Positions 7,565-63,186 of a stretch of 64,000 bases of DNA are shown here, in pieces. How positions within the stretch are numbered: the stretch's first letter is position 1; every line of letters begins with the position of its first letter. Location of the stretch: positions 1-64,000 of the forward strand of contig JABIRI010000141.1 of assembly GCA_018667915.1 (NCBI GenBank), written 5' to 3'. The notes below the pieces were generated by a model. It saw only the letters and a list, made by a program, of their open reading frames with translations, made no database searches and was not told where the DNA came from. The position numbers and the translations under genes are program-made. The DNA comes from Opitutaceae bacterium (GTDB lineage Bacteria; Verrucomicrobiota; Verrucomicrobiia; Opitutales; Opitutaceae).

Positions 7565-7586
7565 GTTGCCACCATTATGGTGACAA
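7565..7586. promoter_or_regulatory. Palindromic operator-like site, copy 1
   Basis: ttgccaccattatggtgaca plus flanking bases. It is a near-perfect inverted repeat centred on the T of CCATTATGG, with one mismatch in the left half relative to copy 3. It lies about 130 bases upstream of the mnmE start. The size and dyad symmetry suit a homodimeric repressor or activator. The cognate regulator is not identifiable from the window. Confidence 0.55.
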
Positions 7587-7730
7587 ACATGCATAACCCA
7601 ATTTTTATGAATGATTAAAGAAGGTGTGAATGCGGTGGCCTGGGAATAGGTCTACGTTCCTCCGACTCGCCCAAACCCGGTCTTGTTGCCCCCATCTCCC
7701 TGACGTTGAATTTCCTCCGATCAAAACGCA

Positions 7731-7750
7731 TGTCACCACAATGGTGACAT
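7731..7750. promoter_or_regulatory. Palindromic operator-like site, copy 2
   Basis: tgtcaccacaatggtgacat, with the same outer half-sites TGTCACCA / TGGTGACA as the other copies but a slightly different centre (CAA). It lies 164 bases from copy 1. Conservation of the arms while the flanks differ argues for selection on the dyad. Confidence 0.55.
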
Positions 7751-7845
7751 ACTCGCGGAAATCCCTCCCAGTTTCTGTTTCAGAATAGCCTCCCTTGGAC
7801 TCAAATGAGGTCAGACCTTCCGAAAGAGTCGTGGGTTGTGTTACT

Positions 7846-7867
7846 TGTCACCATTATGGTGACAAAC
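7846..7867. promoter_or_regulatory. Palindromic operator-like site, copy 3
   Basis: The perfect form: TGTCACCATTATGGTGACA, a 19-base palindrome, flanked by TT and AA, which extends the symmetry to TTGTCACC...GGTGACAA. It lies about 40 bases past the stop of the efflux adaptor gene. Being downstream of that operon, it is more likely to act on a transcript starting in this gap, or to be part of a repeat family, than to be the efflux promoter operator. Confidence 0.6.
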
Positions 7868-27961: not shown

Positions 27962-28006
27962 AAAAAAAAGCAGCCGCCCAAAAAGGACGGCTGCTGAAGT
28001 TTTTTA
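27962..28006. terminator. Bidirectional Rho-independent terminator
   Basis: gcagccgccc / ggacggctgc forms a 10-base stem with one mismatch and a 5-base A/T loop. Eight A precede it (eight T on the minus strand) and gaagtttttt follows on the plus strand. It lies between the convergent small unknown gene (ends 27918) and the histone-like gene (ends 28024) and can serve both. Confidence 0.85.
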
Positions 28007-28023
28007 TTTGGTGAAGACTAAGC

Positions 28024-28257
28024 TTACTTCTTCTTAGCAGGTGCCTTCTTAGCAGGTGCCTTTTTGGCAGGTGCCTTCTTAGCAGGTGCCTTTTTGGCAG
28101 CCTTCTTTTTAGCAGGTGCCTTTTTAGCAGCCTTCTTTTTAGCAGGTGCCTTTTTAGCAGCAGCCTTCTTCTTAGCAGGTGCTTTTTTAGCAGGTGCCTT
28201 CTTAGCAGGCGCCTTCTTTTTAGCAGCTTTCTTTACCGTTTTTTTGGCTTTGGCCAT
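28024..28257 (-). CDS. Histone H1-like Lys/Ala/Pro-rich DNA-binding protein
   Basis: 77 residues from [10 protein letters not shown], almost entirely Lys, Ala and Pro: tandem KKAPA and KKKAA units with a short [11 protein letters not shown] start and no globular part. Such tails bind DNA (or RNA) non-specifically and compact the nucleoid, as with Hc1-like and eukaryotic H1 C-terminal tails. At DNA level the units are near-identical 15-base repeats (agcaggtgccttctt), so copy number can change by slippage. The track start 15 codons upstream lacks support. It has its own terminator downstream. Confidence 0.85.
28030..28215 (-). repeat. Coding tandem repeat in the histone-like gene
   Basis: Imperfect tandem units of about 15 bases (agcaggtgcctttttagc and variants) running through most of the gene and encoding the KAPAK/KKAA motifs. 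Variants differ mainly in third positions and in ttctt versus ttttt runs. It is not a CRISPR: there are no spacers and the frame is kept throughout. Confidence 0.85.
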
Positions 28258-36402: not shown

Positions 36403-37074
36403 TTACCGTTGAGCGAGTTCACGGAAGGCATCGCGGCCGATCCAGCGGGCGGATTTTGATTCTCGGGTCGTCAATTCCTCGGCGAGATCGAGGGCGGCGG
36501 CGAGGCAGGTTTCGCTTTGGCGTTTGCCGATTTGGCGCAGGGCCCAGTTGACGGCTTTCTTCACAAAATTGCGTTCGTCGTCGGCGGTTTGGGCGATGAG
36601 GGGCAGGAAATCGAGGAAGGTTTGGTGGGGTTCCTTTTTGCGTTTTAAGGCGAGGGTGGCCATGAGGGCGAAGGCGGTGCGCCGCTCAAATTCGGGTTCA
36701 CGTGGCGCCCATTCGCGCACTTTGGCGAGGGCGAAGTCGGTTTCGCGAAATACGTTGATGCACGTTTGGTCACAAACATCCCAGGAGTCGAATTTGGTGA
36801 TCCAAGCGTCGGCCAATTCGGGAGTGAATTGTTTGGGGTCGGCCGTGAGCGCGGCGAGGATTTGCGCTTCGTGGATGGGGTGCTCCCACAGTGCGAGGGC
36901 GAGCTCTTGGTTGCGCCGATGGAGCTTTGCCATGCCGCGCAGGCGCACCATCGAGGCGCCGAGCATTTCGGTTTTTGGGCGGATGCCGAAGCGCAATTGG
37001 CCGGCGACGTTTACCGGATCAGACTCGGCCCGCAGCTCGGCGAGGAGTTGGTTGGCGAGCGCAGTGGCGGTCAT
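36403..37074 (-). CDS. AlkD-like DNA alkylation repair protein
   Basis: 223 residues of tandem HEAT-like helices, as in the AlkC/AlkD DNA glycosylase superfamily that removes alkylated bases. Recognisable segments: YGVR-type region replaced by LRFGIRPKTEMLGASMVRLRGMAK, LALALWEHPIHEAQILAALTADP, the conserved WVTKFDSWDVCDQTC-like stretch (DAWITKFDSWDVCDQTCINVF), and FVKKAVNWALRQIGKR. The W-x-x-x-F-D-x-W-D-x-C-D motif is characteristic of this family. The inverted repeat copy at 37111-37206 sits immediately upstream, between it and the DAHP synthase gene. Confidence 0.85.
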   Translation of the reverse strand: MTATALANQLLAELRAESDPVNVAGQLRFGIRPKTEMLGASMVRLRGMAKLHRRNQELALALWEHPIHEAQILAALTADPKQFTPELADAWITKFDSWDVCDQTCINVFRETDFALAKVREWAPREPEFERRTAFALMATLALKRKKEPHQTFLDFLPLIAQTADDERNFVKKAVNWALRQIGKRQSETCLAAALDLAEELTTRESKSARWIGRDAFRELAQR

Positions 37075-37110: not shown

Positions 37111-37206
37111 TCTTTCTCTTTATTCCTTATCTTTATCTTTACTCTCCGAATTGGGAGGCAGGGTGGGCGGCGCGTGGCGCCGTCAGATAAGGAATAAAGA
37201 GAAAGA
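37111..37206 (-). repeat. Solo inverted-repeat element (copy A, gene-less)
   Basis: Two perfect 22-base arms: 37111-37132 beginning TCTTTCTCTTTATTCCTTAT, and its reverse complement at 37185-37206. They enclose a 52-base centre with an inner cggcgc-gtg-gcgccg hairpin. The right arm abuts the TAA of the DAHP synthase gene. Read on the minus strand, the 3' arm and the bases before it (cggagagtaaagataaagat...) match the 3' end of the four-helix-bundle element at 42180-42220 and give an in-frame KDKDKE-stop, like its KDKDNE-stop. This suggests an internally deleted relative. Confidence 0.75.
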
Positions 37207-38262
37207 TTAGCCGGAATTCCGACGGGAGCGAACGGCTTGGGCGAGGTGATCGAGGACGGGTAGGGTTTTTTCCCAGGCGAGGCAGGCGTCGGTGATGCTG
37301 CGGCCGTAGACGAGAGGTTTGGTGTCGAGGGATTGGTTTCCGCCAACGAGATGACTCTCGAGCATGAGTGCGGCGATGGCGGGTTCGCCTTGGGCAATTT
37401 GATTAGCGAGATCGCCGGCCACTTCGGGTTGTTTCTCGGCGTCTTTGCCGCTGTTGGCGTGGCTGCAATCGACCATCACGTAGGCCGGAAGTTTTTGGGC
37501 TTCGAGCTGGGTTTTGGCTTCCGCGATATGAGTGGCCGAGTAGTTGGGCCCGGCCGAACCGCCGCGTAGCACCATGTGGGTGTCGGGATTGCCGGAGGTG
37601 CCCATGATGGCGGGCGCACCTTCGCGGGTCAGGGTGGGAAACCAGTGGGGGTTGTTGGCCGAGCGAATCGCGTCGACCGCGACCTTCAGGTTGCCATCGG
37701 TGCGGTTTTTGAAGCCGACCGGCATGGAGAGCCCGGAGGCGAGTTCGCGGTGCACCTGGCTTTCGACGGTGCGGGCGCCGATCGCTCCCCAGCTGATGAC
37801 GTCGGCGTAGAACTGGCCGAGAGTGGTGTCCAGAAACTCCGTGGCGATGGGCAGCCCTTTGGCGGTGACGTCGATCAACAGTTGTCGTCCGAGTCGCAGC
37901 CCTTGGTTGATTTGGTAAGAGCCGTCGCGGGTGGGATCGTTGATGAGTCCCTTCCAGCCGACCACAGTGCGTGGTTTCTCAAAATACACCCGCATGACGA
38001 TCAGCAGATCTTGCCGGTATTTTTCGGCCGCGGGAGCCAACAGGTCGGCGTAGTCTAGGGCGGCGGCGGGATCGTGGATCGAGCATGGGCCGGCGACCAC
38101 GAGTAACCGGTCGTCTTCTCCGCGCATGATGGCGGCGATTTCGTGTCGCGCTTCGGCGATTTGGTCGCGGGAAGCGTCCGGCAACGGAATCTCTTCGGCG
38201 AGCAGGCCGGGAGCGATGAGTGGTTTGGTGGCGCGGATGCGCAGGTCAGCGGTTTCAGGCAT
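37207..38262 (-). CDS. aroG: 3-deoxy-7-phosphoheptulonate synthase, AroF/G/H type
   Basis: First enzyme of aromatic amino acid synthesis (phosphoenolpyruvate plus erythrose 4-phosphate). 351 residues from MPETADLRIRATKPLI, the class I-alpha length. An upstream TTG gives 13 extra residues but fits the family less well. Features: DDRLLVVAGPCSIHDPAAALDYA, MRVYFEKPRTVVGWKGLINDP, KNRTDGNLKVAVDAI, DCSHANSGKD and SHLVGGNQSL. The C-terminal SITDACLAWEKTLPVL is typical. The allosteric inhibitor (Phe, Tyr or Trp) is not deducible here. The stop codon touches the repeat element described above. Confidence 0.94.
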   Translation of the reverse strand: MPETADLRIRATKPLIAPGLLAEEIPLPDASRDQIAEARHEIAAIMRGEDDRLLVVAGPCSIHDPAAALDYADLLAPAAEKYRQDLLIVMRVYFEKPRTVVGWKGLINDPTRDGSYQINQGLRLGRQLLIDVTAKGLPIATEFLDTTLGQFYADVISWGAIGARTVESQVHRELASGLSMPVGFKNRTDGNLKVAVDAIRSANNPHWFPTLTREGAPAIMGTSGNPDTHMVLRGGSAGPNYSATHIAEAKTQLEAQKLPAYVMVDCSHANSGKDAEKQPEVAGDLANQIAQGEPAIAALMLESHLVGGNQSLDTKPLVYGRSITDACLAWEKTLPVLDHLAQAVRSRRNSG

Positions 38263-38319
38263 CGGAAGCGCGAACGTGGCTTTTCGGCCGGGCGTTGGCA
38301 AGGAGCAGGGACTCCGCTC

Positions 38320-41737: not shown

Positions 41738-42220
41738 ATCTTTCTCATTACTCTTTATCCTTATCTTTATCTCACCCCGGCGGAGTCTTCACTATGCGTA
41801 AAAAATTCGATCACGAAAAACTTCACGCTTACCAGAAGGCCGTTGAGTTTTGCGCTTGGGCAACCCCCCTCCTCGAATCACTGCCAACCCGACTAGCCGC
41901 CCGTGATCAATTGGACCGCGCATCAACGAGCGTCGTTCTGAACATAGCGGAAGGAAACGGGAAGCGATCCTTTCCTGATCGTTCGCGTTTTTTCGATATC
42001 GCGAGGGGTTCGGCTTTGGAGTGTGCCGCTTGTTTGGATGTTTTGATTTGTCGCGGTCAGGTGGACCTGGCCCGAGCGGATGAAGGGAAATCGCTCTTGC
42101 TCGAAGCAGTTTCCATGGTGGGTGGGCTGATTGCCCGTTTCGCTGGAGACGGTCGATTAGAAGAGGAACAAGCTGGATACGGAGAAGATAAAGATAAGGA
42201 TAACGAATAAAGATAAAGAT
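41738..42220 (+). mobile_element. Inverted-repeat-bounded unit carrying a four-helix-bundle gene (copy B)
   Basis: Left arm about 41738-41773 (pyrimidine-rich, ...ttatccttatctttatct) and right arm about 42185-42220 (its purine-rich reverse complement). They share an exact 18-base core TTATCCTTATCTTTATCT plus imperfect flanks. The only gene inside is 41794-42210, and its stop codon lies within the right arm. A 9-base direct repeat ttgccgaat lies outside both arms (41707-41715 and 42248-42256) and could be a target duplication or chance. No transposase is encoded, so any movement would need help in trans. Two gene-less relatives are at 37111-37206 and 52433-52463. Confidence 0.55.
41794..42210 (+). 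CDS. Four-helix-bundle protein (23S rRNA IVP/bS23-like)
   Basis: 138 residues from MRKKFDHEKL, with ggag 8 bases upstream; the track start inside the left repeat is not credible. The family wording is clear: KLHAYQKAVEFCAWATPLLESLP (helix 1), DQLDRASTSVVLNIAEGNGKRS (helix 2 and the NIAEG turn), RFFDIARGSALECAACLDVL (helix 3), and ARADEGKSLLLEAVSMVGGLIARF (helix 4). Homologues occur in 23S rRNA intervening sequences and as the Avd accessory proteins of diversity-generating retroelements, but the function here is unknown. The tail EDKDKDNE is encoded by the flanking repeat. No rRNA or reverse transcriptase is nearby. Confidence 0.88.
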   Translation: MRKKFDHEKLHAYQKAVEFCAWATPLLESLPTRLAARDQLDRASTSVVLNIAEGNGKRSFPDRSRFFDIARGSALECAACLDVLICRGQVDLARADEGKSLLLEAVSMVGGLIARFAGDGRLEEEQAGYGEDKDKDNE

Positions 42221-51756: not shown

Positions 51757-51854
51757 AGCTGTCGGGCGTAAAGCCCGACCCACGTTGCCTCTCAGGTGGG
51801 TCGGGCTTTACGACCGACAGCTTCGGTGCACCGCGGACCGGACGGAGCCGGTCC
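51757..51854. repeat. Extragenic palindromic repeat between convergent genes
   Basis: Arms gctgtcgggcgtaaagcccg... (51758-51783) and its reverse complement (51796-51821) agree at 25 of 26 positions, and each arm also folds on itself (gtcgggc/gcccgac). It is followed by a smaller hairpin ggaccgg / ccggtcc at 51835-51854. The block fills the gap between the cytochrome operon end and the convergent GNAT gene. The tgtcgggcg...cgcccgaccca core recurs at 63107-63128, so this is a dispersed REP-like family. Confidence 0.75.
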
Positions 51855-52432: not shown

Positions 52433-52463
52433 CGAGAAAGAGAACGAATAAAGAGAAAGATTC
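52433..52463 (+). repeat. Relic of the four-helix-bundle element's 3' arm (copy C)
   Basis: cgagaaagagaacgaataaagagaaagatt, matching the right arm of the unit at 42185-42220 (gataaggataacgaataaag...) with a few substitutions. Read in the same sense it gives FEKENE-stop, parallel to the DKDNE-stop of the intact gene. No left arm and no gene remain nearby. It sits in the gap between the small secreted protein gene and the GNAT gene, both on the minus strand; an unrelated cctcgg/ccgagg hairpin follows at 52472-52488. Confidence 0.6.
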
Positions 52464-63073: not shown

Positions 63074-63128
63074 GAGGTCAGCGACCTCTGCTACAGCGTG
63101 AAACATGTCGGGCGCAACGCCCGACCCA
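63074..63128. repeat. Palindromic pair between convergent genes
   Basis: gaggtc-agc-gacctc (63074-63088) and gtcgggcg-caa-cgcccgac (63107-63125, followed by cca). The second hairpin is the same family as the core of the block at 51757-51821. Located between the convergent DUF1592 and symporter genes, where such structures can act as transcript ends. Confidence 0.7.
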
Positions 63129-63186
63129 CGGTAAAGCACCGCACTCCATGGTGGGGCAGCCTTATCCCCAAAATTGTCTCACCGCT

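Follow-up and report, generated by a model that had tools for sequence, protein, structure and literature searches.

The intervening sequence (IVS) of 23S rRNA genes, REP/RAYT repeats, heptameric repeats and MITEs are the described systems with which the locus reported here is compared. In Coxiella burnetii, the IVS holds an S23 ORF between inverted repeats that form a 28-bp stem; RNase III cuts this stem, and the authors of that study cite mobile-element hypotheses for the IVS (PMC4990558). REP/RAYT and RAYT-TIR repeats are short dispersed palindromes accompanied by a gene that is flanked by them, with a possible non-autonomous relation between the two (PMC3733652). Degenerate heptamers that are dispersed and mostly intergenic, such as GGGAATC of Xanthomonas and GGGGA(C/T)T of Nostoc, have been described as G-quadruplex or simple-sequence repeats, with 70 inverted heptamer pairs in X. 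campestris, and the main text of that paper does not mention S23/IVP proteins with the heptamers (PMC4692102). The STRR of cyanobacteria are grouped with these heptameric repeat families. MITEs are short, gene-less and dispersed, and have terminal inverted repeats. No open-access paper that connects IVP genes with heptamer arrays was found.

The window (the whole stretch of 64,000 nucleotides that was analysed) contains a gene-less hairpin between an aroG-type gene and an AlkD-like gene. The features of this locus are as follows.

36403-37074, minus strand: AlkD-like DNA alkylation repair gene (Pfam PF08713), downstream cistron
37111-37132, plus strand: left arm, 22 nt, perfect complement of 37185-37206
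37166-37184, plus strand: inner G+C hairpin GGCGGCGCGTGGCGCCGTC, a core common to other gene-less hairpins; the other strand reads TCTGACGGCGNAGCCGCC
37185-37206, plus strand: right arm, 22 nt; its outer base adjoins the aroG stop codon (37209-37207, minus strand)
37207-38301, minus strand: aroG-type DAHP synthase (Pfam PF00793, TIGR00034), upstream cistron

The two arms are 100% complementary and lie 52 nt apart, and the aroG TAA is followed on the minus strand by TCTTTCTC with 0 nt between, exactly as described in the first-pass annotation, which had also placed the hairpin correctly between aroG and the AlkD-like gene (alkD). The order on the minus strand is the aroG stop codon, the hairpin, 36 nt and the alkD start. 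The hairpin is probably transcribed together with aroG and alkD in one operon, because the two genes are co-directional. A TCTTTA-type degenerate array runs inward past the left arm to about position 37147, so that the element (37111-37147 on its left side) is a degenerate hexamer array facing its own inverse rather than a unique 22-mer. The minus strand does read KDKDKE, as noticed earlier, but this is a trivial outcome of the hexamer array. The minus-strand RNA of the hairpin folds with -49.5 kcal/mol, as compared with -21.2 +/- 3.4 kcal/mol for shuffled sequences (z = -8.3), and none of the 200 shuffles folds as well. Folding is strong on either strand, with a z of about -8. No ORF is present inside the hairpin; the related unit at 41738-42220 has one.

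Copies of the arms were searched for in the genome that contains the window (G000; 4.28 Mb, 361 contigs). The arms of these copies are a degenerate array of TCTTTA, TCTTTC and TCGTTC, the outer end of which usually begins with TCTTTCT. The arm pattern gives 26 matches when up to one mismatch is allowed, and the reversed control pattern gives none. At least 12 of the copies are paired gene-less hairpins of the same arm class, and one further copy is a gene-bearing IVP unit. Further copies are one-armed, a form that is common; the one in the window is listed below with the gene-bearing unit. The sequence CTGACGGCG is located just inside one arm in seven hairpins (the window copy and six others), and NAGCCGCC follows it in most cases. 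The stem-loop of the window copy is slightly longer than those of the other hairpins that bear CTGACGGCG. At the corresponding place in a relative (G003), CTGACGACGCGNAGCGTCGCC or a close variant is found in 9 of the 17 sites inspected, and the inner hairpin appears as CTGACGACG... in most of the two-armed hairpins. GAAACCC, a second conserved motif near the ends, stands out clearly in some of the copies of G003 and is weak in G000.

The hairpin therefore cannot be read as a simply truncated copy of the gene-bearing unit, because its inner core is not part of that unit. The earlier description of it as a gene-less, MITE-like copy of the four-helix-bundle repeat holds in that it belongs to the arm family of that unit, of which at least 12 paired gene-less copies exist. 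Its similarity to the unit at 41738-42220 is confined to the arms, which are 79-89% similar between copies, and does not extend to the core, which contains no IVP sequence. The proposal that it is an internally deleted derivative is not supported, because the core, besides being without IVP sequence, carries an inner hairpin of its own that is found in other hairpins. The gene-less form thus represents its own lineage rather than the outcome of a one-step deletion.

The 22-bp perfect stem falls within the size of 23S rRNA IVS stems (~20-30 bp), but no IVP/S23 ORF lies inside it, and it is situated between aroG and alkD and not in a 23S rRNA gene. Like MITEs, it is short and gene-less, with terminal inverted repeats and at least 12 paired copies. 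No transposase with the same ends was seen in the sequence that was scanned, in which the arms are shared with the IVP unit. Unlike with MITEs, no target-site duplication is evident in the flanks of 20 copies checked by eye. It resembles REPs as a short dispersed palindrome, but its ends are TCTTTCT/AGAAAGA without a GTAG tag, CGTC is present only in the inner stem of some copies, the arms vary as tandem arrays, and the candidate partner is a four-helix-bundle protein instead of a tyrosine (HUH) transposase. The window hairpin thus works like a MITE or a REP, but lacks their defining features as well as the rRNA location of an IVS.

PF05635 proteins are common and were structurally solved in 2006. 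To our knowledge, they still have no assigned function. The gene-bearing unit of the window encodes a protein of this family, the profile of which matches PDB 2gsc, the X. campestris protein XCC0516. The features of the unit and the one-armed copy are as follows.

41738-41772, plus strand: left arm, 35 nt, 89% complementary to 42186-42220
41794-42210, plus strand: 23S rRNA IVP (four-helix-bundle) gene, 138 aa (PF05635, E 1.7e-19; TIGR02436), the 3' end of which lies inside the right arm
42186-42220, plus strand: right arm of the gene-bearing unit
52434-52460, minus strand: one-armed copy of the array of the window hairpin, with no partner arm found nearby

This unit is located between a TRAM-domain gene (miaB-type site) and the same next gene in G000, G001, G002, G004, G005 and G007. 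The arms at this site vary by species, being TCTTTA in some and TCGTTC in others, yet pair within each species, and only 4 of 720 left-right re-pairings of the arms score as well as the within-species pairing. At this site, then, the two arms changed together. Four other orthologous sites show no distinguishable co-variation of this kind, which counts against the explanation favoured below, as do the absence of the inner hairpin of the satellites from the window IVP unit and the lack of a visible target-site duplication.

Other IVP genes of the genus occupy conserved sites elsewhere, and the unit is particular to each (AGTAGCG, GGATTTT and others). For example, an IVP gene with GAATTAC units lies between sdhA- and sdhB-like genes and one with CAAGTA units between trpB- and yicC-like genes, all of these names being read from the flanking sequence by eye. 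At L120, L142 and L144, the IVP unit is found between apparent succinate dehydrogenase genes, inside a core metabolic operon, in several congeners. Flanking inverted arrays that beat all 100 shuffles are present at 29 of the 41 IVP genes of the genus. One scan of 85,462 species genomes with the IVP alignment gave 80 loci from many phyla, and flanking inverted repeats scoring at least 12 are found at 62 of these (78%), whereas such a score is reached by 4.5% of the mismatched flank pairs (p 1e-37) and, within these 80 loci, by 2.5% of the shifted positions. The flanks have a period of 7 nt (lag-7 identity of 0.42 and 0.39 versus 0.25), and the array unit, a degenerate ~7-mer, differs between IVP genes. 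The IVP genes are closely spaced between co-directional neighbours: both neighbours are on the strand of the IVP gene in 54 of 67 cases, when about 57% is predicted from the pair rate of the other genes in these loci (53/70). At L084, L086 and L089, the predicted IVP frames begin with the low-complexity sequences KGTKAQRHK, TEDRRQK and QESGVR, which are arrays read in frame, and annotated tails of this kind may be artefacts caused by the arms.

The array units are also dispersed in the genomes that carry the cognate IVP gene. GGCAGTC, the unit flanking the Bosea IVP gene, gives 83 matches in Bosea, and GGGGACC, inverted arrays of which flank the IVP gene of Xanthomonas codiaei, gives 109 matches in that genome; each gives none in 9 of 11 other genomes, the exceptions being two heptamer-rich cyanobacteria and Rudanella. 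These matches include hairpins of about 80-150 bp, but the counts overstate the number of separate loci, because overlapping positions are counted. In the genus itself, arrays of GAATTAC or of CAAGTA are common only in genomes that have an IVP unit of the corresponding class: GAATTAC arrays give 37-46 matches in four genomes with such an IVP unit and next to none in G001 and G003, both of which are without it, and CAAGTA arrays are all but missing from G003. The G003 genome contains abundant TCTTTA and AGTAGCG hairpins, yet arms of these types are found at none of the four IVP genes that are well covered there, which counts against the satellite explanation given below. Many of its TCTTTA hairpins (L183-L199) have two distinct ends, and no IVP gene with matching arms is present among those examined. 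These hairpins may be orphan satellites or may be served by another mobiliser, the partner having been lost or being unneeded. The genome of Sphaerospermopsis kisseleviana (L273) gives 1103 overlapping matches to GGGGACN heptamer arrays, far above the other genomes, with 246 for the control pattern, and these arrays probably belong to the cyanobacterial STRR class.

These results suggest an IVS-like selfish element outside rRNA, accompanied by gene-less satellites, which would be widespread and of an apparently undescribed kind. On balance, the window hairpin is somewhat better explained as a gene-less satellite in such a two-part system, with the IVP unit as its partner, than by any other origin. 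This reading is based on the anatomy of the hairpin, the shared arm class, the dispersal of the copies, the presence or absence of the hairpin at the junction and the association of IVP genes with arrays across phyla, all of which are observed. The gene-bearing form would consist of an IVP (S23-type four-helix-bundle) gene between inverted degenerate 6-7-mer arrays, lodged between co-transcribed genes, and all that the satellite would retain is a short core, which has a hairpin of its own, between inverted arrays of the same repeat unit. The satellite would work as a MITE or a REP does relative to a transposase, with the IVP unit as the candidate partner, on which the gene-less hairpins would depend or would once have depended. 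The arms may pair into a long duplex, of RNA or of single-stranded DNA, and the IVP or a host enzyme may recognize this duplex for spread. Avd, which is related to this family, serves diversity-generating retroelements as an accessory protein (PMC10053308), which makes a role of the IVP with RNA plausible. The aroG-alkD transcript may tolerate the hairpin because stems of this kind can be cut by RNase III, as happens in 23S rRNA IVSs; mobilization of the hairpins by the IVP and their excision by RNase III are both inferred. The gene-bearing unit resembles the IVSs in that a single IVP ORF within terminal inverted repeats is inserted in a transcribed region, but it lies between protein genes and not in an rRNA gene, and its arms are degenerate 6-7-mer arrays with dispersed gene-less satellites of the same arms.

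The opposite order of events, in which inverted heptamer and hexamer hairpins are an independent repeat class made by slippage or moved by another enzyme, and the IVP gene lodges in them later by recombination or because its protein binds them, is a less probable but serious alternative. It accounts for the abundance of TCTTTA and AGTAGCG hairpins in G003 without an IVP gene of that arm class, for the core that the satellites share and the IVP unit lacks, and for the frequency of one-armed copies. However, most IVP loci across phyla are flanked by arrays, and the unit is different each time and is found dispersed through the genome concerned; a purely independent repeat is disfavoured because it would not predict this coupling. 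The data thus favour, but do not prove, partnership with the IVP unit. An origin of the hairpin by chance or as a low-complexity artefact, which the simple-sequence-like arms might suggest, is extremely improbable and was rejected on the basis of the 26 matches against none and the failure of every shuffle to fold as well.

Comparison of the junction in relatives, as recommended in the first-pass annotation, is informative about its history. AroG is present in all eight members of the genus examined. In G000 and its nearest relative G005, a sister species with an AroG identity of 86%, aroG is followed by hairpins that share their inner core (GACGGCGCCnCGCGCCGC and, after it, CCTGCCT) but have altered arms. 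In G002, G004 and G006, alkD begins some 10-40 nt after aroG and the hairpin is absent. G001 has a hairpin of the same arm class with a different core shortly before alkD, G003 has one with another core just after aroG with no alkD adjoining, and G007 has no adjacent alkD behind aroG. The perfect arms, which had been taken to argue for recent origin, do not mark a recent insertion, because the orthologous hairpin of G005 has the same core; judged from these sequences, the element probably predates the split of G000 and G005, a double gain with the same core being less likely. Selection on pairing of the arms is possible. The hairpin may have been kept for a host role, such as protection of the 3' end of aroG mRNA, a site for RNase III processing or lowered expression of alkD, as for intercistronic REPs. 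Its very stable fold (z -8.3), its exact abutment on the aroG stop codon, its retention in G005 with arm changes and the position of another hairpin (C214) likewise just 3' of a stop codon are consistent with such a role, but the three congeners without the hairpin and the location of other copies beside unrelated genes make it rather unlikely; it is compatible with, and not exclusive of, the satellite explanation. At the C214 site, G004 has an orthologue of the upstream gene without the hairpin, but this comparison gives no clean junction because the downstream gene differs. A simple rho-independent terminator of aroG is very improbable and is contradicted by the sequence. The stem-loop is located directly 3' of the stop codon and has a weak Rfam match to Phe_leader (26.8 bits versus a gathering threshold of 55), but A and U predominate in its outer stem, after which comes ACGUCUCC rather than a U-run, no T-run follows it on either strand, and a terminator scan gives only two weak sites, neither of them for this stem. 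An IVP-unrelated hairpin at this position in distant genomes had been proposed as a sign of a terminator; instead, the aroG hairpins of G001 and G003 share the arm class, and none has a U-tract. Assignment to a known RNA family was rejected, the sub-threshold Phe_leader match being the only one in Rfam.

If PF05635 proteins and the arrays are linked as the satellite reading proposes, both gain a testable origin, in which the binding target of the protein would be its cognate array. This link would unite rRNA IVSs, dispersed heptamer hairpins and the Avd-like protein family, and would explain the tails KDKDKE, TEDRRQK and KGTKAQRHK as arrays read in frame. A wider and more tentative generalization, which we consider possible though not the probable outcome, is that free-standing IVP genes across bacteria belong to a large class of mobile elements that have inverted arrays of degenerate 6-7-mers at their ends and no other gene, that much of the heptamer content of bacteria consists of their gene-less satellites, mobilized without a known transposase and perhaps through an RNA or single-stranded hairpin, and that rRNA IVSs are special cases of this class.

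The window contains other repeats as well. Another palindromic repeat family, GTGGGTCGGGCNTAAAGCCCGAC, is present at 51757-51822 and 63106-63130, and a related copy lies in a flank elsewhere in the genome (L006). A 15-nt tandem array at 27997-28248, with 13 in-register copies, is located in a short minus-strand ORF and appears to encode a basic tail rich in lysine, alanine and proline. A 23-nt palindrome, TTGTCACCATTATGGTGACAA, is present in three copies near a minus-strand gene (7566-7588, 7730-7752 and 7845-7867), and these copies look like repeated operator sites.
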